From Paragorgia papillata (Eukaryota; Cnidaria; Anthozoa; Scleralcyonacea; Coralliidae), in assembly GCA_035771165.1 (NCBI GenBank), contig JAWNZC010000234.1:558001-622000 (forward strand): 64,000 nucleotides of DNA. The letters are read 5' to 3'. The notes under the pieces are model-generated. The model saw only the letters and a list, made by a program, of their open reading frames with translations, did not search any database and was not told the origin of the DNA. Shown in pieces: positions 25,326-64,000 of the stretch. How positions within the stretch are numbered: the stretch's first letter is position 1; every line of letters starts with the position of its first letter. A program made the position numbers and the translations under genes.

Positions 25326-25360
25326 GACACTTTACCATTTTACCGCCTTGCAAACGCAAA

Positions 25361-27415: not shown

Positions 27416-28770
27416 CAGTGCAGTGCAGTGCAGTGCAGTGCAGTGCAGTGCAGTGCAGTGCAGTGCAGTGCAGTGCAGTGCAGTGCAGTGTAGTGTAGTG
27501 TAGTGTAGTGTAGTGTAGTGTAGTGTAGTGTCAATAGTGTAGTGTCAATAGTGTAGTGCAGTGCAGTGCAGTGCAGTGCAGTGCAGTGCAGTGCAGTGCA
27601 GTGCAGTGCAGTGCAGTGCAGTGCAGTGCAGTGCAGTGTAGTGTAGTGTAGTGTAGTGTAGTGTAGTGTCAATAGTGTAGTGTAGTGTCAATAGTGTAGT
27701 GCAGTGCAGTGCAGTGCAGTGCAGTGCAGTGCAGTGCAGTGCAGTGCAGTGCAGTGCAGTGCAGTGCAGTGCAGTGCAGTGCAGTGTAGTGTAGTGTAGT
27801 GTAGTGTAGCGTAGTGTAGTGTAGTGTCAATAGTGTAGTGTAGTGTCAATAGTGTAGTGCAGTGCAGTGCAGTGCAGTGCAGTGCAGTGCAGTGCAGTGC
27901 AGTGCAGTGCAGTGCAGTGCAGTGCAGTGCAGTGTAGTGTAGTGTAGTGTCAATAGTGTAGTGTAGTGTCAATAGTGTAGTGTAGTGTCAATAGTGTAGT
28001 GCAGTGCAGTGCAGTGCAGTGCAGTGCAGTGCAGTGCAGTGCAGTGCAGTGCAGTGCAGTGCAGTGCAGTGCAGTGCAGTGTAGTGTAGTGTAGTGTCAA
28101 TAGTGTAGTGTAGTGTCAATAGTGTAGTGCAGTGCAGTGCAGTGCAGTGCAGTGCAGTGCAGTGCAGTGCAGTGCAGTGCAGTGCAGTGCAGTGCAGTGC
28201 AGTGCAGTGCAGTGCAGTGCAGTGCAGTGCAGTGCAGTGCAGTGTAGTGTAGTGTAGTGTAGTGTCAATAGTGTAGTGTAGTGTCAATAGTGTAGTGCAG
28301 TGCAGTGCAGTGCAGTGCAGTGCAGTGCAGTGCAGTGCAGTGCAGTGCAGTGCAGTGCAGTGCAGTGCAGTGTAGTGTAGTGTAGTGTCAATAGTGTAGT
28401 GTAGTGTCAATAGTGTAGTGCAGTGCAGTGCAGTGCAGTGCAGTGCAGTGCAGTGCAGTGCAGTGCAGTGCAGTGCAGTGCAGTGCAGTGCAGTGCAGTG
28501 CAGTGCAGTGCAGTGCAGTGCAGTGCAGTGCAGTGCAGTGCAGTGCAGTGCAGTGCAGTGCAGTGCAGTGCAGTGCAGTGCAGTGCAGTGCAGTGCAGTG
28601 CAGTGCAGTGCAGTGCAGTGCAGTGCAGTGCAGTGCAGTGCAGTGCAGTGCAGTGCAGTGCAGTGCAGTGCAGTGCAGTGCAGTGCAGTGCAGTGCAGTG
28701 CAGTGCAGTGTAGTGTAGTGTAGTGTAGTGTAGTGTAGTGTAGTGTAGTGTAGTGTAGTGTAGTGTAGTG
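27416..28770. repeat. pentanucleotide array 1 (CAGTG/TAGTG) with higher-order structure
   Basis: 1.35 kb of 5-bp units. Long CAGTG runs alternate with short TAGTG runs and the spacer TGTCAATAGTGTAGTG, which recurs about every 120-170 bases (near 27530, 27668, 27826, 27950, 28095, 28263, 28387). TCAATAGTG is also the exact 3' junction of the R2-like LINE. Confidence 0.95.
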
Positions 28771-31700
28771 ACAACCGTCAAATCCACGTGATGATCCTAT
28801 CTTGGTCCCAAACCAGTCATCTTCATCACCAGAACTCCGTGATTCGTGTTCTCGCCACTCATCCCATTCTCCTATCAATCCCGTTATAGATTCAACCCAT
28901 CATATACTTCATGCCTCCAATTTTGACTCCTCTCCTTCCACACAACAACCAACATCACCCGATCCTGAGTCGGATCCTGTCCTTTCATCAACTACTTCGC
29001 TTACCACTTTCCTCAATAAATCAATTGACTCCTCTCCTCCCACCATCATTCAGCATCGGACTTCGTCCGCCAATTCTCAACAAACATTGGATTGTCTCAG
29101 TTCTTTGCTTCGTATTAACAAACCTTTTTCATCACCCCGAACTGAACAAGCCTCAAACTCCTTATCGCGTTTCATTCGTGAATGCAATAATATTCTTCCT
29201 TCTGTTCCTCAGCGAGCTCCCAAAACAGTTGGTTTACTTTCTTCACCTATTTCTTCATCAGAAGCCTCTTCCATCTTAACTGTTGTTAACGATTCATCCC
29301 GATCCTCGCCTCCTGCACCAGTCTAGTTCTCCTAGACGTTACCAAAGACCAACAACTGCTGGATCCTTTTCTCCCTGGTCATCTCCACGCCCTCCTCGTC
29401 GTTCACCCAACGTTGCCCAACCAGATGTCGATGACCTAATTAATTCGATAACCCCACTCCGTCATCTTCCTTTACTTCTGATAACGATGGAAATCCTTCG
29501 ACAAATACCTGTTCAACTTCTGAGTCACGATCTTCTCCTGTTAATGATTCTTCTTCTCCTAACATGCATGATGATGATTTCACACAATCTCAAAATTCAC
29601 CATCGTCCATTCCTTCAGAATCACGCTTGAAGAGAATTGCTTTTCGTGAAAAATGGACAACTGTCTTCTCCGGGGACATTCCGTGGTCGGACTTTTGCAC
29701 CCTCTGCGATGAATTTACCGTTGAATCTCGATCTCTCGCTTTAGAAATCGCTGCAGAATCTTCATCTTCTTTTCGTCGCCCAAAACCTCTTCCTCGTCGT
29801 GATCGTCCATCTGGCCGCCGTCCTGCTTTCCGTCATCGACCGCTTTTATCTAATCCCGCCGAAGCACAACGCATTCAAACGTTATATCGTCACTCTAAGA
29901 AAAGAGCTGCTCGGAAAATCCTCTCTCCTAACAGTCCTTTCTACACTGGATCAACAGATAAAGCAGAATCATTCTTTAGAAATACATTTTCCTTTCGTCA
30001 ATGTGACACTACATCCCTTCAAGACAAATTAAAAGACCTCGTTACACCTACCCCGAGCGATGACTTCCTCTTTTCACCTCCTTCTTCTGATGAAATCCGT
30101 CGAAAACTCTTCTCTGCCGCGAATACCTCTCCTCGGCCTGATCGCGTCGAATGTCGTCACTTGAAAAGCATTGACCCATCGTGCTCTATCCTTTCTCTCC
30201 TTTTCCAACACTGTTTCAAGCAACGTGATGTTCCTCCAGCCTGGAAGTCTGCGACTACGCTGCTCATCTATAAGAAAGGCAGCACAGACGATCCTTCTAA
30301 TTTTAGACCCATCGCCTTAATGTCGTGTCTCTACAAGTTAGTTATGGGAGTTATCGCCAAACGACTAACATCATGGGCCATTGATCACGATCTTTTATCC
30401 AAAGAACAGAAGAGTGCTCGTCCCAGTGAAGGTTGTTATGAACACACCTTTCTCCTCCAGTCCATCGTAGGTGATGCCCGACGTAATCGGAAAAATGTTT
30501 TTGTCGCTTGGCTTGATCTTCGCAATGCTTTTGGAAGTATCCCTCATTCTGCTATTACCACCACCCTTTCCCATATTGGAGTACCACAACCACTAATTGA
30601 AATGATCACCAATTCTTATTCTGGAGCCACCACCAAAATACGTACCCCCACCAGTTTGACCTCTGATATACCAGTTTTATCAGGTGTCAAGCAAGGTTGT
30701 CCATTAAGCCCAATCATTTTCAATTTGACCATCGACATCATTTTGCGTGCGATTAAACAAAAACTTCAGACATTGGTCCTGCTAAACTTCATGGTATACC
30801 TGTCTCTGTCTTTGCATATGCTGATGATCTTGTCATAATCTCCAGAAATAAAGATCGACTCCAGAAACTCTTAGATGCTGCTTCTTCGACTGCGACAACC
30901 CTTGGTTTATCCTTCAGACCTGATAAGTTCGCCTGTGTCAGCCTCACCTGTTCCAGATCTAATCATTCTGAATCTTCTTTTGAATATAATGAAATCGTCG
31001 TCCAGAATAATTCCATTCCTCCACTTGATCGTGAACATCCTTACAAATACCTTGGTGTTCCTATTGGCCTAATCCATGACCCAGATAACATTTCTGACTT
31101 GGTTCAAAACCTTTCACGTGATTTGGACAACATTGAGAAATCCCTTTTAGCTCTTTGGCAGAAATTAGACATGATCCGTACCTTTCTTCAACCTTCCTTA
31201 ACATTCGCCCTTCGTGCTGGATACCCTAAAAAAGAACATCTTCGTGAATATCGTTCAACTCTCATTTCCACCATCCGTAGAATATGTTCTCTACCATCTG
31301 GAGCTTCTGCTTCCTACATCTTCGCTCACAAACGCGCTGGTAGTCTTGGCCTCCTTGATCCAATCCTTGAAGCTGATGTTCAAGAAATAATTCATTCGGT
31401 TAAGATTCTATCTTCCTCCGACCCGACTGTAATTCACATTGCTAATGCTGAATTAAACGAAACCGTCCGACATGCCTCCCGATCTAATCCTACTTCTGCT
31501 CTGAAATCCAACTACCTGTCCAGCCTTCCTGATGATCGTTTAAACAACATACATTACCGCATCCAATCGTTGTGGACCCGAGTCCGCAAATCCACTCGTA
31601 ACCTTGGTATTGAAATTAAATTCAATGACAATGGTCTTCCTGTCCTTTCGTCGCAAAACTCCGGTACTGTTATTGCTAAAGAAGCCAGTCGTTTTTTTGC

Positions 31701-32691
31701 ATTTTCATGTCCAAGATCGATTCGCTTCTACACTATTTGCTCTTCCTGATCAAGGGAAAGTTGCTCGGGCGCTTACTACTGACACCTTCGCCAATGGATC
31801 TACTTGGCAATACAATGGCCTCAACATCCGTTTTAGAGACTGGCGTTTTATCCACCGTGCTCGACTCAATTGTCTTCCACTTAATAATGTCAAGAGTCGG
31901 TGGTCTAATGCCAGCCCAAAATGTCGCCGTTGTACTTCGGATGAGACTCTTCCTCATGTCTTGTGTCACTGCCTTCCTAACATGCCTAGTATTCTTCGCA
32001 GACACAACACCATAGTAGACCGTATCACCAACGCCGTTCAACATGGTACCATTAATACCGACAAATAAGTTCGTGCCGCCAACTTACGTTTACGTCCTGA
32101 CATTATTGTTGAAGAGGATAACAAAGTTCTTATAATAGATGTTTGTTGTCCCTTTGATAATAATGCTGAAGCCCTTCATGATGCTCAACAACGAAAAATC
32201 AATAAATATGTAGGGCTGAAGCAATTTTTCATTGGTGAAGGCAAGCAATGTGAGGTATTTGGTTTCGTCGTTGATGCTCTCGGCTCCTGGCATCCTCCAA
32301 ATGAAAATGTTTTACGACACCTTGGAATGTCCAAAAGATACCATTCCTTGTTCAGAAAACTTTGTTGCACGGACGCAATTCAAGGCTCGACAAACATTTA
32401 CCGGGAACATCTTGGCATCACAGAAGATCTCTTAGAAGTAGAAGTTGATCCTGAGTAAACTGTTCGTATATTGACTCGTATTAATATTGTTATGCATGTT
32501 AGAACTTTACTTTTGAACTTCTTTAAACATATTAACCATTTAAATTTTATTACCAATTTTCTTTAAGAATTTACTTATTTCATGTATATAATTATCTATA
32601 TTTGTATGACCATTAATGGCACTTATTGTTATCTCGAAGGACTTAATCAAGACCCATCACCTGTAAATTTTAATTTGTAATAAAAAATCAA
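28771..32691 (+). pseudogene. R2-like LINE copy A, 5'-truncated and mutated
   Basis: Nearly identical to copy B from 43896 onward, so it lacks the 5' UTR and the N-terminal zinc fingers. Lesions: frame break near 29318; about 45 bp deleted near 29446; one base lost near 30761 (before the catalytic box); an extra base near 31693; TAA at 32066-32068. RT, C-terminal zinc knuckle and endonuclease regions are otherwise recognisable. The 3' UTR ends AATAAAAAATCA and passes straight into a TAGTG array. It begins directly after an array, as expected for target-primed insertion with 5' truncation. Confidence 0.9.
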
Positions 32692-32913
32692 TAGTGTAGT
32701 GTAGTGTAGTGTAGTGTAGTGTAGTGTAGTGTAGTGTAGTGTAGTGTAGTGTAGTGTAGTGTAGTGTAGTGTAGTGTAGTGTAGCGTAGCGTAGCGTAGC
32801 GTAGCGTAGCGTAGCGTAGCGTAGCGTAGCGTAGCGTAGCGTAGCGTAGCGTAGCGTAGTGTAGCGTAGCGTAGCGTAGTGTAGTGTAGTGTAGTGTAGT
32901 GTAGTGTAGTGTA
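32692..32913. repeat. pentanucleotide array 2 (TAGTG/TAGCG)
   Basis: TAGTG units, then a block of TAGCG units (about 32780-32878), then TAGTG again. It carries the 3' junction of copy A and the left end of CACTA-like element 1. Confidence 0.95.
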
Positions 32914-33200
32914 CACAGTAAATTTAGGAGAGCAAAAGTTACTCCTGTTTGGGTCAAAAATTACTCTTAACGTCGGGGTAACAGATATTGGAGTAAAACT
33001 TACCCCCGTTTGTGGGGTAGTTGTTACTACAGGGGTAACATTTGAAGGGGTAAGAAGGGGGTAACTCATTTGTAGGGGGTATATATTTATATTGAGGTGA
33101 TAATTACTCTCTACTGAGGGTAAAATTTGCCTTATTCAGGGTATATTGTACCCAAAATTGAGGGGTAAAGCTTGCCAAGGTAAAATTTACCCTCTTCGCT
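32914..33200 (+). repeat. left subterminal repeat region of element 1
   Basis: Many degenerate GGGGTAA and TTACCCC motifs (for example near 32977, 33003, 33035, 33117, 33166). The right side at 42195-42458 mirrors them. Likely transposase-binding sites by analogy with CACTA elements. Confidence 0.65.
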
Positions 33201-33988
33201 GGACGTATCCCTCGATTCAAGATGGCGTAACAATGGCGGATTTCGACGAGTGAAGCTTTTATTTTGTGGATAACGTTTGCTACTTAACGTTCTTCCCAAA
33301 GAAGATATCGTGAACTGATACCCTTTTGGGTAAAGACTTACGGTAGGTAAAATTAACACGTTTATATTTTCATTAAAATCTTCAATTCTGTGTACAATTT
33401 GTCGAGGACTCGAGGAGCGAAGCAGGCGGCAGGCCCCGAACTGATTTGCGCTTCTCGCAGTATGAGTAATAAAGTACTATTTAGTAGATCCCTTTATATC
33501 GAAACGCTCGAACAAGTATTGCAGACAGAATATCTCGCATTCCATTATAAACTATTGATTACAAACCAATATAAACGTACGAACAAAGTTAAACTATTGA
33601 TTAATACATGCAAACCATTATATAAACGTACGAACAAAGTTAACAAATAAACAAACTTTATTTAATGCTATTAATTTCTAAAAATGGATCAATTATAGAA
33701 TACTTGTCCACTTTTGAATGTGCTTTTAGAGACACAAATACAAGTAAGAAATCCACCAAAACTCTGTTAATGTACAGACAGTCAAAGGTTTAAATTGTAT
33801 GTGCTTGTTGTTTGTGATGTGATGAAGTTTATCATGTGATTTTAAAGAACGAGGCAATTTTATATGGTGAATTTTCCCCAACCTAAAACTGATCCTACTA
33901 TTAACGTATGTAATTCATGAAACTGGATGGGTATTCTATGATTGTACCGATTTTATATTTAATATAAGTAAGATGTAAGATTTTATAT
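33201..33988. other. no supported gene
   Basis: Inner flank of element 1, downstream of the minus-strand gene. A duplicated block near 33570-33650 (ATATAAACGTACGAACAAAG, twice) is the only repeat seen. Confidence 0.45.
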
Positions 33989-35281
33989 TTATGTTGATGG
34001 GTATTCATATTTAGGACAAATGTATGCTTTAATTTGTTCTCCAGAACAAGATGGATCAATGAGATGAAGAGCCAAGTAATATTGAAGTTGGGTCAGTTCC
34101 ATCTGTCTGAGAATCAGTGGGATTGAATTGTTTGGAAGAAGGACTTCATAAGCATGGAGGTGGCTATTATATGACATTGTTTCCAGGGGGTGTACAAGCA
34201 ATACTGCATTGTTGACATCTCTCTCTCTGGTATGTATATTTGCTTTACTGCAGCAAAACATGGCCACTCTTCTACAACTTTAATCCACAGTATGCAGTCA
34301 ACTTTGTAGATTGTGCCATGAATAGAAATCCATTTTGATCTGAAATATATATAGTTGGCAGATATGACAGAATTAGTTTGCAGTGACACTATAAAAGATC
34401 AGGATACTAACATTATTTTACTAAATCTCACTTTGTTATACGCGACTCTCTTGTCATCCAGTTTATTTCTTTGTTAAAGCTCAAAGTGTCCAAGGTCACC
34501 AGCATGCACTGTTTTACCTAAAATGTAACATTCCATGTGTAAATAGAGATATGAGGCAACAAGTAGATTATGGTAAAGAAATGCTTAATTGTATACTGGT
34601 TCAATTTGACATTGTACTCCTCAACAGCAGTCTCAATCTGCTTCTACATCCTTGTAGAACAGTAAGTAAGTTTGTCAGAGCTTACAGTAAATTGGTTGAC
34701 ACGGCAGTTAAAATCGAATCAGTATATACTGTAGTTCAATGGTTAGATAATCAGATTAGTATTTAGAACTGACGTGTGTGTATTTGATCTCTTCAGGCAT
34801 CATGTTGAGATTTACTGGTACATTATGAGTTATATTAACCCTTTATAGCCCATTGAAGCGTGCCTTTAGAATTTTACTCTGGCTAATGCCAGACAATTTT
34901 GCTCATAAATGGAGTGATGACTGGGCTATAGAGGGTTAAGGGACTATCTTGGTTAACCCTTTACAGTATAGCCAGAGTGTGCCTTTATAGCCCGAATGTG
35001 CCTTAAGAATTACAGTGGTACTTTTTATGTAGTTATCTATTCAAAATATTATTATTAATTTACACTCTTTTTTCATACCAGGTCCAATCTCTATTCAAGT
35101 CTCCATGAAAGTTGATTCATTGCGTCCTGTTGACTGCAACTGATAACATATCCACTGCTGATGTCGCATTGAAAGTGTGTATGGAAGGTTTGTGTAGTTT
35201 CCAATTATTGTTGCTAACTTCTTAAAGTAGTGATGCTTTGCCTCATACCTCATGCACCATGATCTTACTAAAGGTCCCAAC
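33989..35281 (-). pseudogene. transposase-type gene of element 1, 3' exons, broken
   Basis: Two minus-strand blocks. 35281-35079: LGPLVRSWCMRYEAKHHYFK, NYTNLPYTLSMRHQQWICYQL, then a TGA at about 35096 before the donor. 34339-33989: SKWISIHGTIYKVDCILW, then after a frame change in a GA run near 34220, ETMSYNSHLHAYEVLLP, ending TAA. I recognise this layout (an RxE-KH block followed by an H-F/L-HAY block) from large uncharacterised zinc-finger proteins common in fish and cnidarian genomes. The E-rich block resembles the C-terminal region of CACTA transposases. N-terminal and catalytic parts are absent, so it is a remnant. Confidence 0.55.
34835..34939. mobile_element. 105-bp MITE, TTAA ends
   Basis: TTAACCCTTTATAGCCC at the left and GGGCTATAGAGGGTTAA at the right; lies in the intron between the two minus-strand blocks. 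A partial relative (TTAACCCTTTACAGTATAGCC) starts at about 34953. Confidence 0.65.
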
Positions 35282-37220: not shown

Positions 37221-37254
37221 ATGGAGAACTTTGTAAAGCAGACACTTTTGTCTA

Positions 37255-42458: not shown

Positions 42459-42715
42459 TAGTGTAGTGTCTAAATTTGGGGTAATTTTTGCTCTCCTAAG
42501 TTTACTGTGTAGTGTAGTGTAGTGTAGTGTAGTGTAGTGTAGTGTAGTGTAGTGTAGTGTAGTGTAGTGTAGTGTAGTGTAGTGTAGTGTAGTGTAGTGT
42601 AGTGTAGTGTAGTGTAGTGTAGTGTAGTGTAGTGTAGTGTAGTGTAGTGTAGTGTAGTGTAGTGTAGTGTAGTGTAGTGTAGTGTAGTGTAGTGTAGTGT
42701 AGTGTAGTGTAGTGT
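42459..42715. repeat. pentanucleotide array 3, with duplicated transposon end
   Basis: TAGTG units. At 42470-42509 the last ~40 bases of element 1 reappear, because a 51-bp unit (42419-42469) made of the transposon end plus two array repeats is duplicated as 42470-42520. Pure TAGTG follows to 42715. Confidence 0.92.
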
Positions 42716-43374
42716 GGCCTATCTGTAGTTCGTGATTTTGTTCAAGTATTATTTCTCCGTGTCACGATTATTTGGTGAGCCAAAATTTCACTGTTCGTTT
42801 GGTTTTGGTATTCCTATCCTGTTGTACAAGTTTCACTTCTGTTGGTGTAATCAATTTTGAATTATTTATCATTTCGTGTTTGACCGTTGGAGTTGTTTTG
42901 TCTCACTTGACGTCTCGTAGCAACAGTTATATTTGAATTTTCTCCGTCAATCCTGACTCCGCAGTTTGGTTATTCCTGTGGTTATTCATACCAGTTTTGT
43001 TGTCATCGTCCCATTCTTTTATCGGTTCTATTTTGGTTGATGCTCGTCTTATATATTTCGAATTTTACTCAAGTTTATATCGTGCCGTATAACCTTCAAA
43101 TATTTATCAAGATCGTCTGTCTCCTTCAGATTTCGCTATATATATATTTACCTCGTAATATTCGCTTGGTTTTCATCAAATGTTCTTCTTACTGCTATTT
43201 TGGAATCGCTTAACATTTCTACAACTACTGTCGGATTTTGGTTTATTTTAGTACAATAAATTAGCTTTTGTTGCATTTTTTATTTGATTCTTATTAGACT
43301 TGCATCACGGGTTTTCCCCGTGCGAAGTATCAAATTTCCTATGTTATTTTCTTGAGTATTTTGCTGATTACGTC
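42716..43374 (+). promoter_or_regulatory. 5' untranslated region of R2-like copy B
   Basis: About 660 bases before the preferred ATG. Similar to 63795-64000 in the last copy. R2 elements usually start with a self-cleaving ribozyme; I could not judge a fold by eye. Confidence 0.6.
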
Positions 43375-46300
43375 ATGTCGTCTCCACGAACTATTCAATC
43401 ATTTATTTGTCCTGACTGCAATTTTTCATCGTGTTCACAAGCTGGCCTTTGCATTCATCGTACTAAAACTCACAAAATTACTGACAGCTCTATTAAATCG
43501 GTCTCCGTAGTGAGATCATACCCTGAAGGAAAGAATTTTATTTGCTGTCTTTGCGGAAATACCCTCGTCAATTTTCCAAACTTTAAACGTCATTTTAAAA
43601 ACATTCATCCTGATACTCTTCTTTTGGCATCTGCTCATTGCTCAATATGTGATATGGATTTTTCTAATGCGCAAGCTGTTAGTGTTCATTGCCAACGTTC
43701 ACATGGTATTTCAAAAAATAATCCACATGTTCAATATCCTCAAAGTCCGACTCCAATAATGTCTCAGATTACCGCTGACCATAATGTTACATCTGGTGTT
43801 GCTCCCCGCCATTCAACCAGACCTGTTCGTAAAAAACGTTCTTCCAAACAACGATCTTCGTTCTGTTCAGACCAATCCTTGCCATCCTCTGTCCAACAAC
43901 CGTCAAATCCACTTGTTGATCCTATCTTGGTCCCAAACCAGTCATCTTCATCACCAGAACTCCATGATTCGTGTTCTCGCCACTTATTCCATTCTCCTAT
44001 CAATCCCGTTATAGATTCAACCCATCATATACTTCATGTCTCCAATTTGGTCTCCTCTCCTTCCACACAACAACCAACATCACCCGATCCTGAGTCGGAT
44101 CCTGCCCTTTCATCAACTACTCCGCTTACCACTTTCCTCAATAAATCAATTGAATGCTCTCCTCCCACCATCATTCAGCATCAGACTTCCTCCGCCAATT
44201 CTCAACAAACATTGGATTGTCTCAGTTCTTTGCTTGGTATTAACAAACCTTTTTCATCACCCCGAACTGAACAAGCCTCAAACTCCTTATCGCGTTTCAT
44301 TCGTGAATGCAATAATATTCTTCCTTCTGTTCCTCAACGAGCTCCCAAAACAGTTGGTTTACCTTCTTCGCCTATTTCTTCATCAAAAGTCTCTTTAACT
44401 GTTGTTAACGATTCATCCCGATCCTCGCCTCCTGCACCTAGTCCTTCTCCTAGACGTTACCAAAGACCAACAACTGCTGGATTATTTTCTCCCTGGTCAT
44501 CTCCACACCCTCCTCGTCGTTCACCCAACGTTGCCCAACCAGATGTCGATGACCTAATTAATCCGACTTTACATTCTTCTGCTGAGATACCTACTCCTCC
44601 TTCCTCATCATCGCACCCCACTCCGCCATCTTCCTTTACTTCTGACAACGATGGAAATCCTTCGACAAATACCTGTTCAACTTCTGAGTCGCGATCTTCT
44701 CCTGTTAATGATTCTTCTTCTCCTAACATGCATGATGATGATTTCACACAATCTCAAAATTCACCATCGTCCATTCCTTCAGAATCACGCTTGAAGAGAA
44801 TTGCTTTTCGTGAAAAATGGACAACTGTCTTTTCCGGGGACATTCCGTGGTCGGACTTTTGCACCCTCTGCGATGAATTTGCCGTTGAATCTCGATCTCT
44901 CGCTTTAGAAATCGCTGCAGAATCTTCATCTTCTTTTCGTCGCCCAAAACCTCTTCCTCGTCGTGATAGTCCATCTGGCCGCCGTCCTGCTTTCCGTCAT
45001 CGACCGCTTTTATCTAATCCCGCCGAAGCACAACGCATTCAAACGTTATATCGTCACTCTAAGAAAAGAGCTGCTCGGAAAATCCTCTCTCCTAACAGTC
45101 CTTTCTTCACTGGATCAACAGATAAAGCAGAATCATTCTTTAGAAATACATTTTCCTTTCGTCAATGTGACACTACATCCCTTCAAGACAAATTAAAAGA
45201 CCTCGTTACACCTGCTCCGAGCGACGACTTCCTCTTTTCACCTCCTTCCTCTGATGAAATCCGTCGAAAACTCTTCTCTGCCGCCAATACCTCTCCTGGG
45301 CCTGATCGCGTCGAATATCGTCACTTGAAAAGCATTGACCCATCGTGCTCTATCCTTTCTCTCCTTTTCCAACACTGTTTCAAGCAACGTGATGTTCCTC
45401 CAGCCTGGAAGTCTGCGACTACGGTGCTCATCTATAAGAAAGGCAGCACAGATGATCCTTCTAACTTTAGACCCATCGCCTTAATGTCGTGTCTCTACAA
45501 GTTAGTTATGGGAGTTATCGCCAAACGACTAACATCATGGGCCATTGATCACGATCTTTTATCCAAAGAACAGAAGAGTGCTCGTCCCAGTGAAGGTTGT
45601 TATGAACACACCTTTCTCCTCCAGTCCATCGTAGGTGACGCCCGACGTAATCGGAAAAATGTTTTTGTCGCTTGGCTTGATCTTCGCAATGCTTTTGGAA
45701 GTATCCCTCATTCTGCTATTACCACCACCCTTTCCCATATTGGAGTACCACAACCACTAATTGAAATGATCACCAATTCTTATTCTGCAGCCACAACCAA
45801 AATACGTACCCCCACCAGTTTGACCTCAGATATACCAGTTTTATCAGGTGTCAAGCAAGGTTGTCCGTTAAGCCCAATCATTTTCAATTTAACCATCGAC
45901 ATCATTTTACGAGCGATTAAACAAAAAGCTTCAGACATTGGTCCTGCTAAACTTCATGGTATACCTGTCTCTGTCTTTGCTTATGCTGATGATCTTGTCA
46001 TAATCTCCAGAAATAAAGACCGACTCCAGAAACTCTTAGATGCTGCTTCTTCGACTGCGACAACCCTTGGTTTATCCTTCAGACCTGATAAATGCGCCTC
46101 TATCAGCCTCACCTGTTCCAGATCTAATCATTCTGAATCTTCTTTTGAACTTAATGAATTCATCGTCCAGAATAATTCCATTCCTCCACTTGATCGTGAA
46201 CATCCTTACAGATACCTTGGTGTTCCTATTGGCTTAATCCATGACCCAGATAACATTTCTGACTTGGTTCAAAACCTTTCACGTGATTTGGACAACATTA

Positions 46301-47628
46301 AGAAATCCCTTTTAGCTCCTTGGCAGAAATTAGACATGATCCGTACCTTTCTTCAACCTTCCTTAACATTCGCCCTTCGTGCTGGTTACCCTAAAAAAGA
46401 ACATCTTCGTGAATATCGTTCAACTCTCGTTTCCACCATTCGTAGAATATGTTCTCTACCATCTCGAGCTTCTGCTTCCTACATCTTCGCTCATAAACGC
46501 GCTGGTGGTCTTGGCCTCCTTGATCCAATCCTTGAAGCTGATGTTCAAGCAATAATTCATTCGGTTAAGATTCTATCTTCCTCCGACCCGACTGTAATTC
46601 ACATTGCTAATGCTGAATTAAACGAAACCGTCCGACATGCCTCCCGATCTAATCCTACTTCTGCTCTGAAATCCAACTATCTGTCCAGCCTTCCGGATGA
46701 TCGTTTAAACAACATACATTACCGCATTCAATCGTTGTGTACCCGAGTCCGCAAATCTACTCGTAACCTTGGTATTGAAATTAAATTCAATGACAATGGT
46801 CTTTCTGTCCTTTCATCGCAAAACTCCGGTACTGTTCTTGCTAAAGAAGCCAGTCGTTTCCTGCATTTTCATGTCCAAGATCGATTCGCTTCTACACTAT
46901 TTGCTCTTCCTGATCAAGGGAAAGTTGCTCGGGCGCTTACTACTGACACCTTCGCCAATGGATCTACTTGGCAATACAATGGCCTCAACATCCGTTTTAG
47001 AGACTGGCGTTTTATCCACCGTGCTCAACTCAATTGTCTTCCACTTAATAATGTCAAGAGTCGGTGGTCTAATGCCAGCCCAAAATGTCGCCGTTGTACT
47101 TCGGATGAGACCCTTCCTCATGTCTTGTGTCACTGCCTTCCTAACATGCCTAGTATTCTTCGCAGACACAACACCATAGTAGACCGTATCACCAACGCCG
47201 TTCAACATGGTACGATTACTACCGACAAACAAGTTCGTGCCGCCAACTCTCGTTTACGTCCTGACATTATTGTTGAAGAGGATAACAAAGCACTTATCAT
47301 TGATGTTTGTTGCCCATTTGATAATAATGCTGAAGCCCTTCATGATGCTCAACAACGAAAAATCAATAAATATGAAGGGCTGAAGCAATTTTTCATTGGT
47401 CAAGGCAAGCAATGTGAGGTCTTTGGTTTTGTCGTTGGTGCTCTCGGCTCCTGGCATCCTCCAAATGAAAATGTTTTACGACACCTTGGAATGTCCAAAA
47501 GATACCGTTCCTTGTTCAGAAAACTTTGTTGCACTGACGCAATTCAAGGCTCGACAAACATTTACCGGGAACATCTTGGCATCACAGAAGATGTCTTAGA
47601 AGTAGACGTAGAAGTTGATCCTGAGTAA
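43375..47628 (+). CDS. R2-like LINE protein: zinc fingers, RT, RLE endonuclease
   Basis: About 1417 residues from ATG 43375; the frame is open upstream without another ATG. Order: three C2H2 fingers (from FICPDCNF, C12/C15/H28/H33; FICCLCGN; HCSICDMDF); a long Ser/Pro-rich linker; a basic RRYQRPTTAG patch; RT with FRPIALMSCLYKL, LSGVKQGCPLSP and catalytic FAYADDLVIIS (45975 onward); C-terminal CCHC knuckle (KCRRCTSDETLPHVLCHC, near 47080-47135); then the restriction-like endonuclease with RPDIIVEE and LIIDVCC (about 47257-47310) and KINKYEGLKQF. Family knowledge: this layout is that of R2/NeSL-group LINEs, which nick a specific target and prime reverse transcription there. Here the target appears to be TAGTG repeats. 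No stops. Confidence 0.93.
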   Translation: MSSPRTIQSFICPDCNFSSCSQAGLCIHRTKTHKITDSSIKSVSVVRSYPEGKNFICCLCGNTLVNFPNFKRHFKNIHPDTLLLASAHCSICDMDFSNAQAVSVHCQRSHGISKNNPHVQYPQSPTPIMSQITADHNVTSGVAPRHSTRPVRKKRSSKQRSSFCSDQSLPSSVQQPSNPLVDPILVPNQSSSSPELHDSCSRHLFHSPINPVIDSTHHILHVSNLVSSPSTQQPTSPDPESDPALSSTTPLTTFLNKSIECSPPTIIQHQTSSANSQQTLDCLSSLLGINKPFSSPRTEQASNSLSRFIRECNNILPSVPQRAPKTVGLPSSPISSSKVSLTVVNDSSRSSPPAPSPSPRRYQRPTTAGLFSPWSSPHPPRRSPNVAQPDVDDLINPTLHSSAEIPTPPSSSSHPTPPSSFTSDNDGNPSTNTCSTSESRSSPVNDSSSPNMHDDDFTQSQNSPSSIPSESRLKRIAFREKWTTVFSGDIPWSDFCTLCDEFAVESRSLALEIAAESSSSFRRPKPLPRRDSPSGRRPAFRHRPLLSNPAEAQRIQTLYRHSKKRAARKILSPNSPFFTGSTDKAESFFRNTFSFRQCDTTSLQDKLKDLVTPAPSDDFLFSPPSSDEIRRKLFSAANTSPGPDRVEYRHLKSIDPSCSILSLLFQHCFKQRDVPPAWKSATTVLIYKKGSTDDPSNFRPIALMSCLYKLVMGVIAKRLTSWAIDHDLLSKEQKSARPSEGCYEHTFLLQSIVGDARRNRKNVFVAWLDLRNAFGSIPHSAITTTLSHIGVPQPLIEMITNSYSAATTKIRTPTSLTSDIPVLSGVKQGCPLSPIIFNLTIDIILRAIKQKASDIGPAKLHGIPVSVFAYADDLVIISRNKDRLQKLLDAASSTATTLGLSFRPDKCASISLTCSRSNHSESSFELNEFIVQNNSIPPLDREHPYRYLGVPIGLIHDPDNISDLVQNLSRDLDNIKKSLLAPWQKLDMIRTFLQPSLTFALRAGYPKKEHLREYRSTLVSTIRRICSLPSRASASYIFAHKRAGGLGLLDPILEADVQAIIHSVKILSSSDPTVIHIANAELNETVRHASRSNPTSALKSNYLSSLPDDRLNNIHYRIQSLCTRVRKSTRNLGIEIKFNDNGLSVLSSQNSGTVLAKEASRFLHFHVQDRFASTLFALPDQGKVARALTTDTFANGSTWQYNGLNIRFRDWRFIHRAQLNCLPLNNVKSRWSNASPKCRRCTSDETLPHVLCHCLPNMPSILRRHNTIVDRITNAVQHGTITTDKQVRAANSRLRPDIIVEEDNKALIIDVCCPFDNNAEALHDAQQRKINKYEGLKQFFIGQGKQCEVFGFVVGALGSWHPPNENVLRHLGMSKRYRSLFRKLCCTDAIQGSTNIYREHLGITEDVLEVDVEVDPE

Positions 47629-47857
47629 ACTGTTCACATATTGACTCGTATTAATATTGTTATGTTAGAACTTTACTTTTGAACTTCTTTGAACATACTA
47701 ACCCTTTAAATTTTATTACCAATTTTCTTTAAGAATTTACTTATTTCATGTATATAATTATCTATATTTGTATGACCATTAATGGCACTTATTGTTATCT
47801 CGAAGGACTTAATCAAGACCCATCACCTGTAAATTTTAATTTGTAATAAAAAATCAA
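47629..47857 (+). other. 3' untranslated region of R2-like copy B
   Basis: About 229 bases ending ATTTGTAATAAAAAATCA, then TAGTG. The same 3' UTR is found at 32458-32691, 60215-60443 and, more diverged, 62723-62929. In R2 elements this region is the RNA bound for target-primed reverse transcription. Confidence 0.8.
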
Positions 47858-56090: not shown

Positions 56091-56154
56091 CAAATATGCA
56101 AATATCAATGAGAATATTGGCATTTACAAACTTTTGGTTTAAATACAATATTGA

Positions 56155-56320: not shown

Positions 56321-57461
56321 CAACATCGTATTTATGCAAATATCAACCAGTTTTCCATGACTAAGAACTGGCCTGGGTTTCTATAATGTGAATGGGTCAT
56401 GTTTTACAATGGCCTGGTCTAGGTCATTGAAAGTGGCATAAGATGGGTATAACTATTTTTTATTTCTATCAGTATATAAATAATATATGATATATACAGT
56501 ACAACAACTACTACTGAAGGTTGAGCAAGCTCGGGCAAAATTTTATTTCTATGCATGATACAGTGAATATTTTTGGTATACATGTATTTAGTGAGACCAC
56601 ATTCATATGGCCATGGAGAAGCAATTTAAATAATTATCTTAACTATAACTTTCTGACCTCGCTAGGACGCAGAGATTGTTTTACTGACATACACAAACAA
56701 GGCCTCCTTCGATCTGTCCTGACGTATATAATGTACATAGAATAATAATAATTTAAGTTGCTCACCTTTATTTGAAATAGATCTATACTGTTTTACTCAA
56801 ATAAAACGTTGAATATTGATTTCATGATTGAATGGATCAGCTCGTACCTCAGATATAATTGTTGTATTTATTCCTACTGACTATTAACTTATTTTGCAGC
56901 CAGGAAAGAGTATGGAGCCCAGTATTGTAAATGCACCCAGTATAGTGACAACAAAAACTGTGGCAGGGATCGATCAGGCATTTCTGTACGTCGATGCAGT
57001 TCTTGTGTGCGAGTCACAAGTCCAACTGTTGTTGGATTGTTGACGCTATATGGCTGGCAACCCACTACGTGTTGGACATCCAATATGGCAAGAAAACCAA
57101 CAACGTAGCAATGGTTTTAGAGGATTGTGTGCTGATGGAAAGGGGCCAAAATAGCATCCAAAACCTGAAGAAGGGAAAGGGGAAGGCAAAGTCAAGGAAA
57201 ATATCAAGATGCAATAAGTTGCAGACCTTTTACGGACGATTGAAGGCTGCAGGATTAAACATTTAACATCTACATCATTGTTTGCTATAATAAATATATA
57301 TACCTTTGCTCTTTCAGTTTCTCATCAAAGTCGTCATGTTGCTTGTTCACATCTGCTGTGTTCACATATCTTTGGTCTTGTTGGCAGTGTTCTTTTGAAA
57401 CCTTGCAACACGCTTTTTATAAAATCACATGTATACGTCCTGTGCGCTGATTGGCCGAAAG

Positions 57462-57488
57462 CTGTGTTTCTATAACTGTATGTAAACA
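57462..57488 (+). repeat. repeat shared with 59254-59406
   Basis: GTGTTTCTATAACTGTATGT followed by AAACATGG; the same motif occurs in both orientations in the palindrome at 59238-59427. The recombinase gene is therefore flanked by inverted copies. Confidence 0.65.
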
Positions 57489-57544
57489 TGGCAATTTCCC
57501 GCCGTTTGTAAAGTTAAAATGACCGTCCGCAAAAGTTTTTTTAA

Positions 57545-58954
57545 AAACTAAATAAAATATGTCACAATACAAATGAGCCCTGTGGCAGTCAACAAGGAGA
57601 AAAACGAGAACGGTTTGCTAGTCTAGAAACCAACGAATTGGACAATTTATTAGAAGCTGCACAGTCTAAAAGGACGAAATACAACACCGTGTACGCTATA
57701 TCGGTTTACAAAGGTGAGTTTGTTTTGGACTTTGAAGGCTGTCAAGGGTACGAGTTCAGTTTCTTAATTGAAAGTACTTTTCTTTCAGAATGGGCTCTAG
57801 AAAGAAAAATTGAAAAAGAGCTTCATGAGCAAACCGACGAAGAACTTGACAAAAACCTGAGAGTCTTCTATGCAGAAGTCAGAAACAAAGAAGGAGAAGA
57901 CTACGGAAAATCAACACTTTTAAACCTGCGAAGCGGAATTGAACGCCATCTCAATTTCCCCCCTTACAACAGGGGAATAAAGTTTTCTAAAAACCCAGTT
58001 TTCAAGAAGTCGAACATGATGCTCGACGCAAAAATTAGAAATTTAAAGCAACAGGGTAAACAAAACGTAGAGCACAAACCTTGCATAACGACGCCAGATC
58101 TGCATAAGCTAAAAGTCCATCCCGTAATCTCCCCTTCGACTCCTCTTGATCTTTTGAGAAACGTTTGGTTTCACACAACTCTATACTGGTGCCGAAGAGG
58201 GCGAGAAGGCCAACGAAACCTAACAGCTTCCAGTTTTAAGCTTCTTGTGGATGAAAATAATCGACCGTATGCGACCATGACCCACGACGAGTCGTCAAAG
58301 AATCATCCAGGTGGAATTGGCGACACCGAAAGTTTTGAGAAGGAAGGCAGGATGTATAAAGCATCCGACGACCCAAGTGATGGCTTCAACGCTTTACAGT
58401 TGTACATATCTAAGCTCAACCCGATGTGTACAGCATTCTACCAGTTTCCAAAGCGAAAGTGGTCTCCAGACGACTCAATTTGGTACGAAAATCGCCCGCT
58501 TGGCGTAAACAAATTGGCGGTTATGATGAAAGAAATCAGCGAGGAAGCGCGGCTGTCAATGAAATACACCAACCATTGTGTGAGAGCCACCGCAATTACC
58601 CTGTGGTCCAATGCAGGTCTGGAAAATCGGCATATTATGGCTATATCTGGTCATCGAAATGAACAGACATTAAAGAGCTACAACGCTCGTCCTTCCTCAG
58701 CGCAGCTTCAGCAAAGCAGTGATGTCTTGTCTAGATCTCTCGAACCTTCAACTGCCAACCTTCAGCTTCGTATGTCTCAACAACAGGCCCCAATGTTTTC
58801 AGAAGCAACTTCGATGGCTCAGACCAATTCCTTCTACGAGGGATCCAGCTTCACCAACATGTTTTCTGGTTGTTCGATTGCCACCGTAAACGTCTGTGTT
58901 AATAATCCACGCCGTGAAGTTAACGACGACGAACCACTTTCTCTCCGTCGCTGA
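57545..58954 (+). CDS. tyrosine recombinase of Crypton/QRICH1 type, one intron
   Basis: The frame is open from 57545; no in-frame ATG is visible before 57638, and the ATG at 57573 is one base out of frame, so the true start may lie in another exon or be damaged. A 75-bp intron (57714-57788, AAAG/GTGAGT to TTTCAG) keeps the frame and joins VYAISVYK to EWALERKIEK. Family features: RFASLETNELDNLL start; first catalytic Arg likely in YWCRRGREGQ; HxxR in NHCVRATA; His in SGHRNE; Tyr nucleophile in TLKSYNA. The set looks intact. Family knowledge: Crypton recombinases, and the domesticated KCTD1, QRICH1 and ZMYM DUF3504 proteins, share this domain. It may be a separate element nested in CACTA-like element 2, or cargo. 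C-terminal 80 residues are low in structure. Confidence 0.78.
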   Translation, partial: KLNKICHNTNEPCGSQQGEKRERFASLETNELDNLLEAAQSKRTKYNTVYAISVYKGEFVLDFEGCQGYEFSFLIESTFLSEWALERKIEKELHEQTDEELDKNLRVFYAEVRNKEGEDYGKSTLLNLRSGIERHLNFPPYNRGIKFSKNPVFKKSNMMLDAKIRNLKQQGKQNVEHKPCITTPDLHKLKVHPVISPSTPLDLLRNVWFHTTLYWCRRGREGQRNLTASSFKLLVDENNRPYATMTHDESSKNHPGGIGDTESFEKEGRMYKASDDPSDGFNALQLYISKLNPMCTAFYQFPKRKWSPDDSIWYENRPLGVNKLAVMMKEISEEARLSMKYTNHCVRATAITLWSNAGLENRHIMAISGHRNEQTLKSYNARPSSAQLQQSSDVLSRSLEPSTANLQLRMSQQQAPMFSEATSMAQTNSFYEGSSFTNMFSGCSIATVNVCVNNPRREVNDDEPLSLRR

Positions 58955-59237
58955 TCACCACGTTTTTCTTTGTATCATCTCTCCGATTTCAGAAGACTTC
59001 ATTATTTGTCCTTTTTCATTAAATTGTGTTGTATTTCAAGCCGAAAACGTGTGCTTGTTGCGTACGAATAGCTTTTCGTCTATTCAAACCTCATGCTGAG
59101 AGCTCGAGGAATATTTTGTGATCATGTGAACAGCCAATGACGTTTCTTGTGCGAGTAAGGAGAATTTAACTTTTCATGATTTTAATAAACGAATCTTATT
59201 TCAATGTTTTTCTTGTTTTCACTGTGTTATTTTATAA

Positions 59238-59427
59238 AAGAAATAGAAAACATTCTCCGTGTTTACATACAGTTATAGAAACACTCGTGAAAGTTTGGGA
59301 GAACTCGAAATGGCATGGAAACACTCGCCCTGCGGGCTCGTGTTCCCACTTTAATTTCTCGTTCTCCCAAACTTCCACTCGTGTTTCTATAACTGTATGT
59401 AAACACGGAAAACGTTTTCTATTTCTT
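59238..59427. mobile_element. palindromic MITE downstream of the recombinase
   Basis: AAGAAATAGAAAAC...CCGTGTTTACATACAG on the left pairs with the complement on the right; the centre is near GAACACGAGCCCGC. About 190 bp. Confidence 0.75.
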
Positions 59428-59439
59428 AAGTATAACACG

Positions 59440-59762
59440 CCAAACGTGTTGATTTACAACACGACATTTTGTCCCCTATAGTAACACGCCTGTTGGGCAT
59501 GCGTGTTTTAATAACACGGCGCGTGTTATTATAACACGTTAAGATATTAGCTAATGTGTTCTTACAACACGCTAACATTTGGAACACGCTAAACGTGTAG
59601 AACACGCTTTTAGCGTGTTGTTATAGCAACACGCTAGGGATAGTCTATTTATTATAAAAACACGTCTATTTTTAGAACACGCCACCGTGTAGAACACGCT
59701 TTAAGCGTGTTACTATAGGGGACAAAAGTGCGTGTTCTTACAACACGTTCGATTTTCTAGTG
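59440..59762 (-). repeat. right subterminal repeats of element 2
   Basis: Dense AACACG and CGTGTT motifs to the terminal TTTTCTAGTG. GTCCCCTATAGTAACACG (59471) and the complement (59710) form an inner inverted pair. Confidence 0.75.
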
Positions 59763-59919
59763 ATAGTGTAGTGTAGTGTAGTGTAGTGTAGTGTAGTGTA
59801 GTGTAGTGGTGTAGTGTAGTGTAGTGTAGTGTAGTGTAGTGTAGTGTAGTGTAGTGTAGTGTAGTGTAGTGTAGTGTAGTGTAGTGTAGTGTAGTGTAGT
59901 GTAGTGTAGTGTAGTGTAG
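59763..59919. repeat. pentanucleotide array 5 (TAGTG)
   Basis: TAGTG units with one irregular GTGGTG step near 59808; starts with the ATA duplication of element 2. Confidence 0.95.
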
Positions 59920-60443
59920 TGCTGAAGCCCTTCATGATGCTCAACAACGAAAAATCAATAAATATGAAGGGCTGAAGCAATTTTTCATTGGTCAAGGCAA
60001 GCAATGTGAGGTATTTGGTTTCGTCGTTGGTGCTCTCGGCTCGTGGCATCCTCCAAATGAAAATGTTTTACGACACCTTGGAATGTCCAAAAGATACCGT
60101 TCCTTGTTCAGAAAACTTTGCTGCACGGACGCAATTCAAGGCTCGACAAACATTTACCGGGAACATCTTGGCATCACAGAAGATGTCTTAGAAGTAGAAG
60201 TTGATCCTGAGTAAACTGTTCGTATATTGACTCGTATTAATATTGTTATGTTAGAACTTTACTTTTGAACTTCTTTAAACATATTAACCCTTTAAATTTT
60301 ATTACCAATTTCCTTTAAGAATTTACTTATTTCATGTATATAATTATCTATATTTGTATGACCATTAATGGCACTTATTGTTATCTCGAAGGACTTAATC
60401 AAGACCCATCACCTGTAAATTTTAATTTGTAATAAAAAATCAA
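59920..60443 (+). pseudogene. R2-like LINE copy C, short 3' fragment
   Basis: Begins at GCTGAAGCCCTTCATGATGC (47331 in copy B) after the array, runs through the end of the ORF (TAA 60212-60214) and the complete 3' UTR, and ends TCA before TAGTG. Strong 5' truncation. Confidence 0.92.
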
Positions 60444-60601
60444 TAGTGTAGTGTAGTGCAGTGTAGTGCAGTGCAGTGCAGTGCAGTGCAGTGCAGTGCA
60501 GTGCAGTGCAGTGCAGTGCAGTGCAGTGCAGTGCAGTGCAGTGCAGTGCAGTGCAGTGCAGTGCAGTGCAGTGCAGTGCAGTGTAGTCTAGTGTAGTGTA
60601 G
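60444..60601. repeat. pentanucleotide array 6 (CAGTG core)
   Basis: A few TAGTG units next to the 3' junction, then mostly CAGTG, then TAGTG again with one TAGTC. Confidence 0.95.
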
Positions 60602-62929
60602 TTAGTTATGGGAGTTATCGCCAAACGACTAACATCATGGGCCATTGATCACGATCTTTTATCCAAAGAACAGAAGAGTGCTCGTCCCAGTGAAGGTTGC
60701 TATGAACATACCTTTCTCCTCCAGTCCGTCGTAGGTGATGCCCGACGTAATCGGAAAAATGTTTTTGTCGCTTGGCTTGATCTTCGCAATGCTTTTGGAA
60801 GTATCCCTCATTCTGCTATCACCTCTACCCTTTCTCATATTGGAGTACCACAACCACTAATTGAAATGATCACCAATTCTTATTCTGGAGCCACCACCAA
60901 AATACGTACCACCACCAGTTTGACCTCTGATATACCAGTTTTATCAGGTGTCAAGCAAGGTTGTCCGTTAAGCCCAATCATTTTCAATTTGACCATCGAC
61001 ATCATTTTACGTGCGATTAAACAAAAAGCTTCAGACATTGGTCCTGCTAAACTTCATGGTATACCTGTCTCTGTCTTTGCTTATGCTGATGACCTTGTCA
61101 TAATCTCCAGAAATAAAGACCGACTCCAGAAACTCTTAGATGCTGCTTCTTCGACTGCGACAACCCTTGGTTTATCCTTCAGACCTGATAAGTGCGCCTC
61201 TATCAGCCTCACCTGTTCCAGATCTAATCATTCTGAATCTTCTTTTGAACTTAATGAATTCATCGTCCAGAATAATTCCATTCCTCCACTTGATCGTGAA
61301 CATCCTTACAAATACCTTGGTGTTCCTATTGGCTTAATCCATGACCCAGATAGCATTTCTGACTTGGTTCAAAACCTTTCACGTGATTTGGACTACATTG
61401 AGAAATACCTTTTAGCTCCTTGGCAGAAATTAAACATGATCCGTACCTTTCTTCAACCTTCCTTAACATTCGCCCTTCGTGCTGGTTACCCTAAAAAAGA
61501 ACATCTTCGTGAATATCGTTCAACTCACGTTGCCACCATTCGTAGAATATGTTCTCTACCATCTCGAGCTTCTGCTTCCTACATCTTCGCTCATAAACGC
61601 GCTGGTGGTCGTGGCCTCCTTGATCCAATCCTTGAAGCTGACGTTCAAGCAATAATTCATTCGGTTAAGATTCTATCTTCCTCGGACTCGACTGTAATTC
61701 ACATTGCTAATGCTGAATTAAACGAAACCGTCCGACATGCCTCCCGATCTAATCCTACTTCTGCTCTGAAATCCAACTATCTGTCCAGCCTTCCGGATGA
61801 TCGTTTAAACAACATACATTACCGCATTCAATCGTTGTGTACCCGAGTCCGCAAATCTACTCGTAACCTTGGTATTGAAATTAAATTCAATGACAATGGT
61901 CTTTCTGTCCTTTCATCGCAAAACTCCGGTACTGTTCTTGCTAAAGAAGCCAGTCGTTTCCTGCATTTTCATGTCCAAGATCGATTCGCTTCTACTCTAT
62001 TTGCTCTTCCTGATCAAGGAAAAGTTGCTCGTGCGCTTACTACCGACACCTTCGCCAATGGATCTACTTGGCAATACAATGGCCTCAACATCCGTTTTAG
62101 AGACTGGCGTTTTATCCATCGTGCTCGACTCAATTGTCTTCCACTTAATAATGTCAAGAGTCGGTGGTCTAATGCCAGCCCAAAATGTCGCCGTTGTACT
62201 TCAGATGAGACCCTTCTTCATGTCTTGTGTCACTGCCTTCCTAACATGCCTAGTATTCTTCGCAGACACAACACCATAGTAGACCGTATCACCAACGCCG
62301 TTCAACATGGTACCATTACTACTGACAAACAAGTTCATGCTGCTAACTCTCGTTTACGTCCTGACATCATTGTTGAGGAGGGCAATAAAGTTCTGATTAT
62401 TGATGTTTGTTGCCCCTTTGACAATAACGCTGAAGCCCTTCGTGATGCTGAACATCGTAAAATCACTAAATACGAAGGGCTGAAGCAATTTTTCATTGGC
62501 CAAGGAAAGCAATGCGATGTCTTTGGTTTTGTGGTTGGTGCTCTTGGCTCTTGGCATCCGGCAAATGAAAATGTCTTACGGCACCTTGGAATGTCGAAAA
62601 CATATCGTTCCTTGTTCAGGAAACTTTGTTGCACGGACGCAATTCAAGGCTCAACAAACATTTACCGTGAACACCTTGGCTTAACTGAGGACAACTTGGA
62701 AGTAGAAGTTGATCCTGAATAAACTCTTTATATTGACTTTCATTAATTTCGTTATATTAGAAACTTTAATTTTATTTTGAACTTCTCTAAACCTATTAAT
62801 TTATTGTATAAAGTACTTCATGTATATATAATTATCTATATTGTATGACCATTAATGGCACTTCTTGTTATCTCGAAGGACTTAATCAAGACCCATCACC
62901 TGTAAATTTTAAATTGTAATAAAAATCAA
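60602..62929 (+). pseudogene. R2-like LINE copy D, 5'-truncated, open C-terminal half
   Basis: Starts at TTAGTTATGGGAGTTATCGCC (45505 in copy B). From 60608 an uninterrupted frame to 62722 covers the RT palm with YADD, thumb, CCHC knuckle and the RLE endonuclease (RPDIIVEEGNK, LIIDVCC). The first ~1.7 kb is almost identical to copy B, but from about 62330 to the end it differs at many positions, and its 3' UTR is shorter and diverged. It ends AATAAAAATCA before TAGTG. It lacks the N-terminal half and so cannot be autonomous. Confidence 0.9.
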
Positions 62930-63011
62930 TAGTGTAGTGTAGTGTTGTAGTGTAGTGTAGTGGTAGTGGTTGTGGTAGTGGTAGTGGTAGGGGTAGGGGT
63001 AGTGGTAGTGG
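62930..63011. repeat. pentanucleotide array 7, decayed
   Basis: TAGTG units pass into GGTAGTG and GGGTAGGGG steps; more degraded than the others. Confidence 0.85.
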
Positions 63012-63569
63012 TTTATTGATCCTGATATTGACGCTCATTATATGAATATCTCCGGTTTGTGTCGTCTTTGTCATGCTGAAGTCTCATCGTACTTAATCGA
63101 CGCTCACCTTATTGAATGCACTTCTTTGGATGGTAATTTTCTTAGTGACTTCATTGATCAATTTTCTTCAACCTATCTTTGTGATGCTGGGGATGTTGTC
63201 AAAGCTACTAAAACATTTCTGAACTTTCAACTAACTGATTCGACCTGTTTATCTAATGATATATTTAGTGACATTTCAGTATACCGAGTTTTTACTAAGA
63301 ACATTGAGGATCTTATTGTTAGGTTAGTCGATGATGCTTTAGTTTCTTTAAAACTATCGAAACCTCCTAATTTCCCAAACTTTAATCTGCTATATTATAA
63401 GTGAATTATTATTCACTTTCCAAGTCTTTTATATCTTTCTCTGAACTTTGAACTATTAACTTTCAGTCTACAATATTCTATTTTATTGTTATAATCAACT
63501 TCTAAATGACCATTAACGGCATTATTAGTTATCCATTAGGTATGTTCTTTAAATTTGTAATGAAAATCA
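63012..63569 (+). pseudogene. 3' fragment of a different LINE with the same 3' tail
   Basis: A frame open from 63012 to TAA-type stop at 63402-63404 (IDPDIDAHYMNISGLC onward) carries CRLCHAEVSSYLIDAHLIEC, a C-x2-C..H-x4-C finger like the C-terminal fingers of many LINE ORFs, and ends NLLYYK. It is not the R2-like protein. Its 3' UTR however matches the R2-like one (ATGACCATTAACGGCA; TTTGTAATGAAAATCA) and ends in the same TCA/TAGTG junction. It is either a second LINE family or a distant relative using the same target. Confidence 0.65.
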
Positions 63570-63601
63570 ATAGTGTAGTGTAGTGTAGTGTAGTGTAGTG
63601 T
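63570..63601. repeat. pentanucleotide array 8 (TAGTG)
   Basis: Six or seven TAGTG units between the LINE fragment and the next R2-like copy. Confidence 0.92.
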
Positions 63602-64000
63602 CAGGTGTCAAGTACGTGTCTCTTTAGCTCTGTTTATTTCTGCTTCGTTGGTTTTAATAATTGGTCCCCATTATGTAAATTTTTGATTGTTGGTTTGCTA
63701 AGTATTTCGTGAACATTCTGCGTCAAGTTCTGGATCGATTGATTATTTTCCGTGACTATATTTTTGGATTATCTATTTGACCGTTTGGCCTGTGGCGTAT
63801 CTGTAGTTCGTGATTTTGTACAAGTATTGTTTCTTCGTGTCACGATTATTTGGTAAGCCCTAATTTTACAGTTCGTTTGGTTTTGGTATTCCTATCCTGT
63901 TGTACAAGTTTCACTTCTATTGGTGTAATCAAGTTTCACTTCTGTTGGTGTAATCAATTTTGAATTATTTATCATTTCGTGTTTGACCGTTGGATTTGTT
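63602..64000 (+). mobile_element. R2-like LINE copy F, 5' leader, cut by window end
   Basis: From about 63795 it matches the 5' UTR of copy B (GTATCTGTAGTTCGTG); before that are about 190 bases that copy B lacks, so this probably shows the more complete 5' end. A 25-bp tandem duplication (AAGTTTCACTTCT...GGTGTAATC) lies at 63906-63955. The ORF would begin beyond the window. Confidence 0.82.

Follow-up and report, generated by a model that had tools for sequence, protein, structure and literature searches.

An RLE-type LINE of the R2/NeSL/Utopia kind in Paragorgia papillata with apparent sequence-specific insertion into a TAGTG pentanucleotide satellite

The window analysed here, a stretch of 64,000 nt of Paragorgia papillata DNA, consists from position 27416 to its end of a nest of elements with TAGTG-type arrays between them. 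Such a locus raises a question of precedence, namely whether a retrotransposon has repeatedly chosen the repeat as its landing site or whether the repeat has grown out of the retrotransposon. The original prediction, an R2-like LINE targeting a TAGTG satellite, was built on four copies (A to D), all of which proved to be real; two others, the diverged relative E and copy F, had been missed. The nest is made up as follows.

27416..28770, + strand: TAGTG/CAGTG array 5' of copy A, holding 15 TCAATAGTG motifs
28771..32691, + strand: copy A, 5'-truncated, frame broken, matching the B protein in more than one frame
32692..32911, + strand: TAGTG/TAGCG array 3' of copy A
about 32912-42509: X, about 9.6 kb, inverted ends CACAGTAAA(T/C)TTAGGAGAGC, TAGTG array outside both ends
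42510..42714, + strand: TAGTG array 5' of copy B
42716..47857, + strand: copy B, near full length and lacking about 190 nt of 5' UTR
43375..47628, + strand: open frame of copy B, 1417 aa
47858..48249, + strand: TAGTG array 3' of copy B
about 48250-59763: Y, about 11.5 kb, inverted ends CACTAGAAAA, many ACACG motifs, TAGTG array outside
59764..59921, + strand: TAGTG array 5' of copy C
59922..60443, + strand: copy C, strongly 5'-truncated
60444..60604, + strand: TAGTG/CAGTG array separating C from D
60605..62929, + strand: copy D, 5'-truncated, with a 706-aa open frame at 60602-62722
62930..63012, + strand: short, partly degenerate TAGTG array from D to E
63013..63570, + strand: copy E, 3' part of a diverged relative, ending AATCAA|TAGTG, 5' boundary approximate
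63571..63601, + strand: TAGTG array of six units from E to F
63602..64000, + strand: copy F, intact 5' end TCAGGTGTCAAGTACG, continuing beyond the window into locus L116

Every array of at least three units in the window adjoins one of eight elements (A to F, X and Y), so that this part of the window may be viewed as a single satellite locus that insertions have filled. As predicted, a TAGTG-type array stands 5' of A, B, C and D, and F has one too; copies A to F share the + strand; and the 5' truncation points do differ, with A, D and C starting at B coordinates 1181, about 2790 and about 4610. The roughly 190 nt of 5' UTR missing from B are present in copies with intact 5' ends, while the RT part of L116, the continuation of F, is about 64% identical to B at the DNA level. 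Each TCAATAGTG motif of the first array consists of the last four element bases and one unit, and the motifs recur in a higher-order pattern; insertions broken off after some four bases may have left them as scars, and later amplification may have multiplied these.

The rest of the window is no less crowded. X has a 51-base stretch doubled at its right, and an ORF of Y (57545-58954) matches DUF3504, with phage integrase below the cut-off. A DNA transposon-like unit occupies 16110-25706 (inverted ends with 17-bp tandem repeats, an rva_4 integrase core and a HECT-domain frame), and an LTR retrotransposon-like unit lies at 6327-11024, whose repeats, about 145 bp long, are 97% identical and whose two adjacent frames match aspartyl protease, RT, RNase H and integrase. 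We also considered the TAGTG arrays as expanded ends of CACTA-type transposons, a candidate that was rejected because the array left of Y is wrongly oriented for it.

The 3' ends of the copies meet the repeat at a fixed junction, seen at all five 3' ends visible in the window; it had been described as TCA followed by TAGTG, and the true end is ATCAA|TAGTG, with a second A. We searched the genome (618 Mb, 473 contigs) with a 26-base tail pattern containing no array and allowing at most two mismatches, which gave 130 matches (control 0), of which 100 places were listed. From the matches listed, together with short stretches and the window, 96 distinct places were read with a somewhat stricter tail; L010/L011 and L031/L033 among them are probably segmental copies, the latter pair having its outer flank in common. 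Among the matches listed, the first unit after the tail is TAGTG in 93 of the 96 places read, and in the other three it is a one-base variant, TAATG, TAGCG and TATTG occurring once each (L004, L062, L085). In all 96 places, it is the same base of the unit that adjoins the tail. Most loci came from the tail pattern, and part of them from a query that included the first three junction bases, so that this part may be biased. The expectation that genomic 3' junctions fall at TCA/TAGTG is thus borne out, three one-base variants included, and 96 junctions sharing one motif, one orientation and one phase support target-primed insertion into one motif. For comparison, (TAGTG)8 has 14,294 start positions on both strands of the 618 Mb (596 for a backwards-pattern control), and pure (TAGTG)8 amounts to about 71 kb, or about 0.01% of the genome.

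Further downstream, the arrays become less uniform. Over 95 places with 80 bases parsed, TAGTG is found in 93, 89, 84, 80, 74 and 68 places at units 1 to 6, and stays flat at 65-68 of 95 from unit 7 to unit 16; the first unit remains TAGTG even where the array soon turns to CAGTG, TGGTG or CGGTG. This fall followed by a plateau could mean that the RNA brings along some TAGTG units. Some places have little 3' array: in L044 and L080 an intact 5' end of a further copy follows after two units, in L067 a different element after about two, and in L062 the sequence degenerates beyond the third unit.

The 5' side is in keeping with the same phase. Eight distinct intact 5' ends (TCAGGTGTCAAGTACG) are all preceded by TAGTG units, only two such units in L044 and L080, and a ninth, a variant in L119, also has an array in front. 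In seven of the eight the phase is TAGTG|TCAGG, the exception being L019. The 3' junction is therefore fixed at TCAA|TAGTG and the intact 5' junction at TAGTG|TCAGG, in equal phase; since the two ends agree in phase, target sequence can have been duplicated or lost, if at all, only in multiples of 5 bp. Where the 5' side could be read, the majority of copies are flanked by array at both ends. Under a strict rule, an upstream array was scored in 30 of the 38 copies with both 5' side and 3' end visible; among the eight misses, the upstream sequence of window copy D and of L048 is, by eye, array or similar to array, copy D of L056 has no real 5' end, and five truncated copies have no 5' array (L006, two in L009, L035, and L017, which is TG-rich). 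Deletion at the array edge would explain these five. Full-length copies outside arrays, a case raised against the original prediction from the start, are absent among the eight intact 5' ends, but the five truncated copies do stand without a 5' array. The idea that the target is read from the upstream side only, prompted by a higher purity of upstream units, was dropped (at unit 12, upstream 26/30 vs downstream 66/95, p = 0.09).

By far the most probable explanation, in our view, is therefore that an RLE LINE of the R2/NeSL/Utopia kind selects a (TAGTG)n satellite for sequence-specific insertion. Insertion would start from an array present beforehand. Judging from the junctions only, the endonuclease would nick between repeat units on the bottom strand, and the resulting ...CACTA-3'OH end would prime the copying of the RNA 3' end, ...AAUCAA, perhaps with UAGUG units behind it; the top strand would be cut at the position of the bottom-strand nick or a multiple of 5 bp away from it, and such an offset leaves no visible change of phase. 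Incomplete copying would yield the 5'-truncated copies, and nests such as that of the window would arise as new copies land beside older ones. The target is common to diverged relatives, namely E, an E-like copy in L056, and F.

One has to consider, however, that the element itself might supply the arrays: a (UAGUG)n tail would be copied into the genome, expand there and then serve later copies as a landing site. We think this rather unlikely, although it accounts for several observations, as the first units are enriched in TAGTG above the plateau (93 falling to 68 of 95) and in five copies only the 3' side bears an array. What bears most directly on it is where the upstream arrays begin. Traced to their start at 42 places, they begin in other sequence in 20, at an element tail in 17, and run off the locus in five; since L036, scored as "other", is an element tail by eye, the count becomes 19 versus 18 of 37. 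Several of the 19 begin in other simple repeats, the arrays upstream of window copies B and C begin at the ends of X and Y, respectively, and one of the 19 is doubtful (L107, with 17 bp of array only). An array that starts in non-tail sequence cannot be explained by the tail of a still-present copy, and with 19/37 of this sort the array probably came first. Growth from the element's own tail, which the original prediction had itself weighed, is thus contradicted in 19/37 cases (the doubtful one included), whereas in the 18 others, L036 counted, the upstream array is the 3' array of an older copy. A copy on contig C452 also speaks against it: its 5' side reads (CAGTG)n and then TAGTGTAGTG (L101) and its 3' side TAGTG and then (TGGTG)n (L008), and if these two ends, 5.3 kb from one another, belong to a single copy, as their distance suggests, TAGTG is found on both sides of the cut within CAGTG and TGGTG arrays. 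Since units mutate and expand, present flanks differ from those at insertion. Read in this way, the sequences suggest that the array is probably older than the inserted element.

Two other explanations fare worse. The satellite may have been duplicated with the element inside it, rather than receiving separate insertions; tandem nests do exist, and the pairs L010/L011 and L031/L033 look like segmental copies, but the many distinct truncation points and distinct outer flanks, spread over many contigs, make this very improbable. That the element inserts broadly and survives only in the satellite, a harmless place where nests would be expected, is scarcely credible, as survival cannot fix a phase and the tail meets the same unit base in 96/96 places.

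The B protein has three N-terminal zinc-finger motifs at residues 12, 57 and 89 and C-terminal CCHC and PD..D restriction-like endonuclease motifs (all read by eye), as well as a reverse transcriptase matching Pfam RVT_1 (E 2.1e-35). By sequence, its best match in the PDB is R2 (E 2.7e-59), and an AlphaFold2 model of residues 440-1416 (mean pLDDT 83) places R2 structures at ranks 1-7 in a fold comparison. RT, C-terminal CCHC, PD..D endonuclease and a predicted R2-like fold together identify the element as an RLE-type LINE. In an RT-RLE tree of 52 rows (the window protein, 49 of 120 homologues listed, and pieces of two R2 chains), the R2 pieces are split from the 50 other rows with support 100/100 and a branch of 2.35, on two R2 references only. 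The nearest neighbours of the window protein are five sequences at 83-85% identity, with octocoral-named sequences further out (Dendronephthya, Xenia, Paramuricea), which makes a host within or close to the octocorals likely; turtle proteins are nearer than R2, in a tree without rows labelled Utopia, NeSL, R4 or HERO. One turtle genus, Pelodiscus, is listed as a Utopia host in PMC4640811. The label "R2-like" consequently suits the fold and the RLE type of the element but not its place in the tree, where R2 lies far outside; a position outside R2 proper, with NeSL/Utopia as its home, is likelier.

Nematode NeSL elements carry an Ulp1-type protease domain and target the spliced leader; no such protease was found in B, for which Pfam gives RVT_1 only, and the target here is TAGTG, not the spliced leader. 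No insertion at the 28S R2 site was seen among the 96 places read, which are all TAGTG or a one-base variant, though a few copies in 28S genes may exist besides. As for the Myb domain, whose lack assigns a protein to Utopia rather than R2 by a rule given in PMC13188248, Pfam found no match in B at E 0.001, and the model, which begins at residue 440, shows two helices at residues 469-518 that by eye are no Myb; the Myb test is a weak one here. Rfam gave no match on the window (gathering scores) or on 63560-64000 (E up to 5), hence no HDV-type ribozyme was found, and no relatives were found among viral contigs.

The Utopia connection brings in the U2 snRNA gene. According to PMC4640811, the U2 sequence 3' of Utopia insertions begins at nt 39, and this target, GTGTAGTA|TCTG, is close to the TAGTGTAGTG|TAGTG of the present family. 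In the present genome the nt 39 place reads AAGTGTAGTA|TCTG (numbering counted by hand). Upstream of the cut, the array in its observed phase agrees with U2 at 8/10 bases, the other four phases at 0, 1, 2 and 5, and downstream agreement is 3/10; among 5120 pentamer-phase combinations, 20 reach eight matches. The likeness was noticed after the fact, so the 8/10 match is not a test. It is conceivable, though we lean against it, that a Utopia-like ancestor cutting U2 at AAGTGTAGTA|TCTG moved to a satellite with near-equal bases, TAGTGTAGTG|TAGTG, in equal phase, as a stand-in for the branch-site region of U2 snRNA, the U2 genes here now being occupied by another kind of LINE.

U2 genes give 425 matches in the genome, most of those listed lying in one tandem array (C14:16190328-16372312 and on, L122-L142, with units of about 1058 bp; L121 is on C461). 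Gaps in this array are irregular and resemble insertions of roughly 2-6.5 kb, and AAAAC stands ahead of AAGATCAAGTGTAGTA|TCTG in 14 of the 19 disturbed U2 repeats. In these 19 repeats (L121, L122, L124 and L125-L140), we saw by eye no tail of the TAGTG family upstream of U2 nt 39. A tblastn search with the window protein gave nothing in L121-L124 at E 0.001; L141 matched weakly (E 0.014), and in L142 the match was to an RT (25% identity, E 4e-23). Inspection by eye showed an endonuclease-like fragment in L141 and, in L142, frames of RT and AP-endonuclease-like type. A presence of the TAGTG family inside U2 genes was therefore rejected, as the 19 disturbed repeats show other ends and the two followed further inward resemble, by eye, LINEs of the AP-endonuclease type. 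The insertions in the U2 array are perhaps Keno-like LINEs.

With this family, a pentanucleotide satellite joins the fixed landing sites of RLE LINEs, and the family provides ample material in the form of numerous copies and intact 5' ends. Site-specific DNA insertion is a field in which R2-type proteins currently attract interest, and a target that is short and repeated is easy to handle in biochemical work. If the U2 likeness is real, a gene-targeting retrotransposon can switch its target via a few similar bases upstream of the cut.

Simple repeats are familiar ground for such elements: Dong is an RLE LINE inserting into (TAA)n. Togen, in (TG)n, and some HERO families are described as microsatellite-targeting RLE LINEs in PMC4640811. 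By description, Dong, Togen and these HERO families are like the present family in inserting into simple repeats and differ in the repeat. Utopia, of the NeSL clade, is presented in the same source (PMC4640811) as an RLE-type LINE in which one to three zinc fingers at the N terminus are followed by RT and, at the C terminus, by a further zinc finger and the RLE, with a precise 3' boundary, variable 5' ends and, in arthropod families, no target duplication; domain order, precise 3' boundary and variable 5' ends are all found again here, whereas Utopia targets U2 snRNA genes and the present family a satellite. R2 is alike in overall fold and RT-RLE order, and its lineage A also has three N-terminal zinc fingers (PMC13188248), but it targets 28S rDNA and lies far outside in the tree, and Pfam found no Myb in the present protein. 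R2 lineages with changed or lost targets are reported in PMC5035012. The non-site-specific R2-like elements of sponges (PMC13188248) and R2NS (PMC5035012), which these sources describe as having variable flanks or no target specificity, resemble the present family in having R2-like proteins away from 28S; only in the present family is the site fixed. In our searches of PubMed Central, we found no report of TAGTG or a pentanucleotide satellite as a non-LTR target, which agrees with the novelty first claimed for it; since microsatellites and U2 snRNA genes are known targets of related elements, it is the target that is new, whereas the habit is a known one among RLE LINEs.
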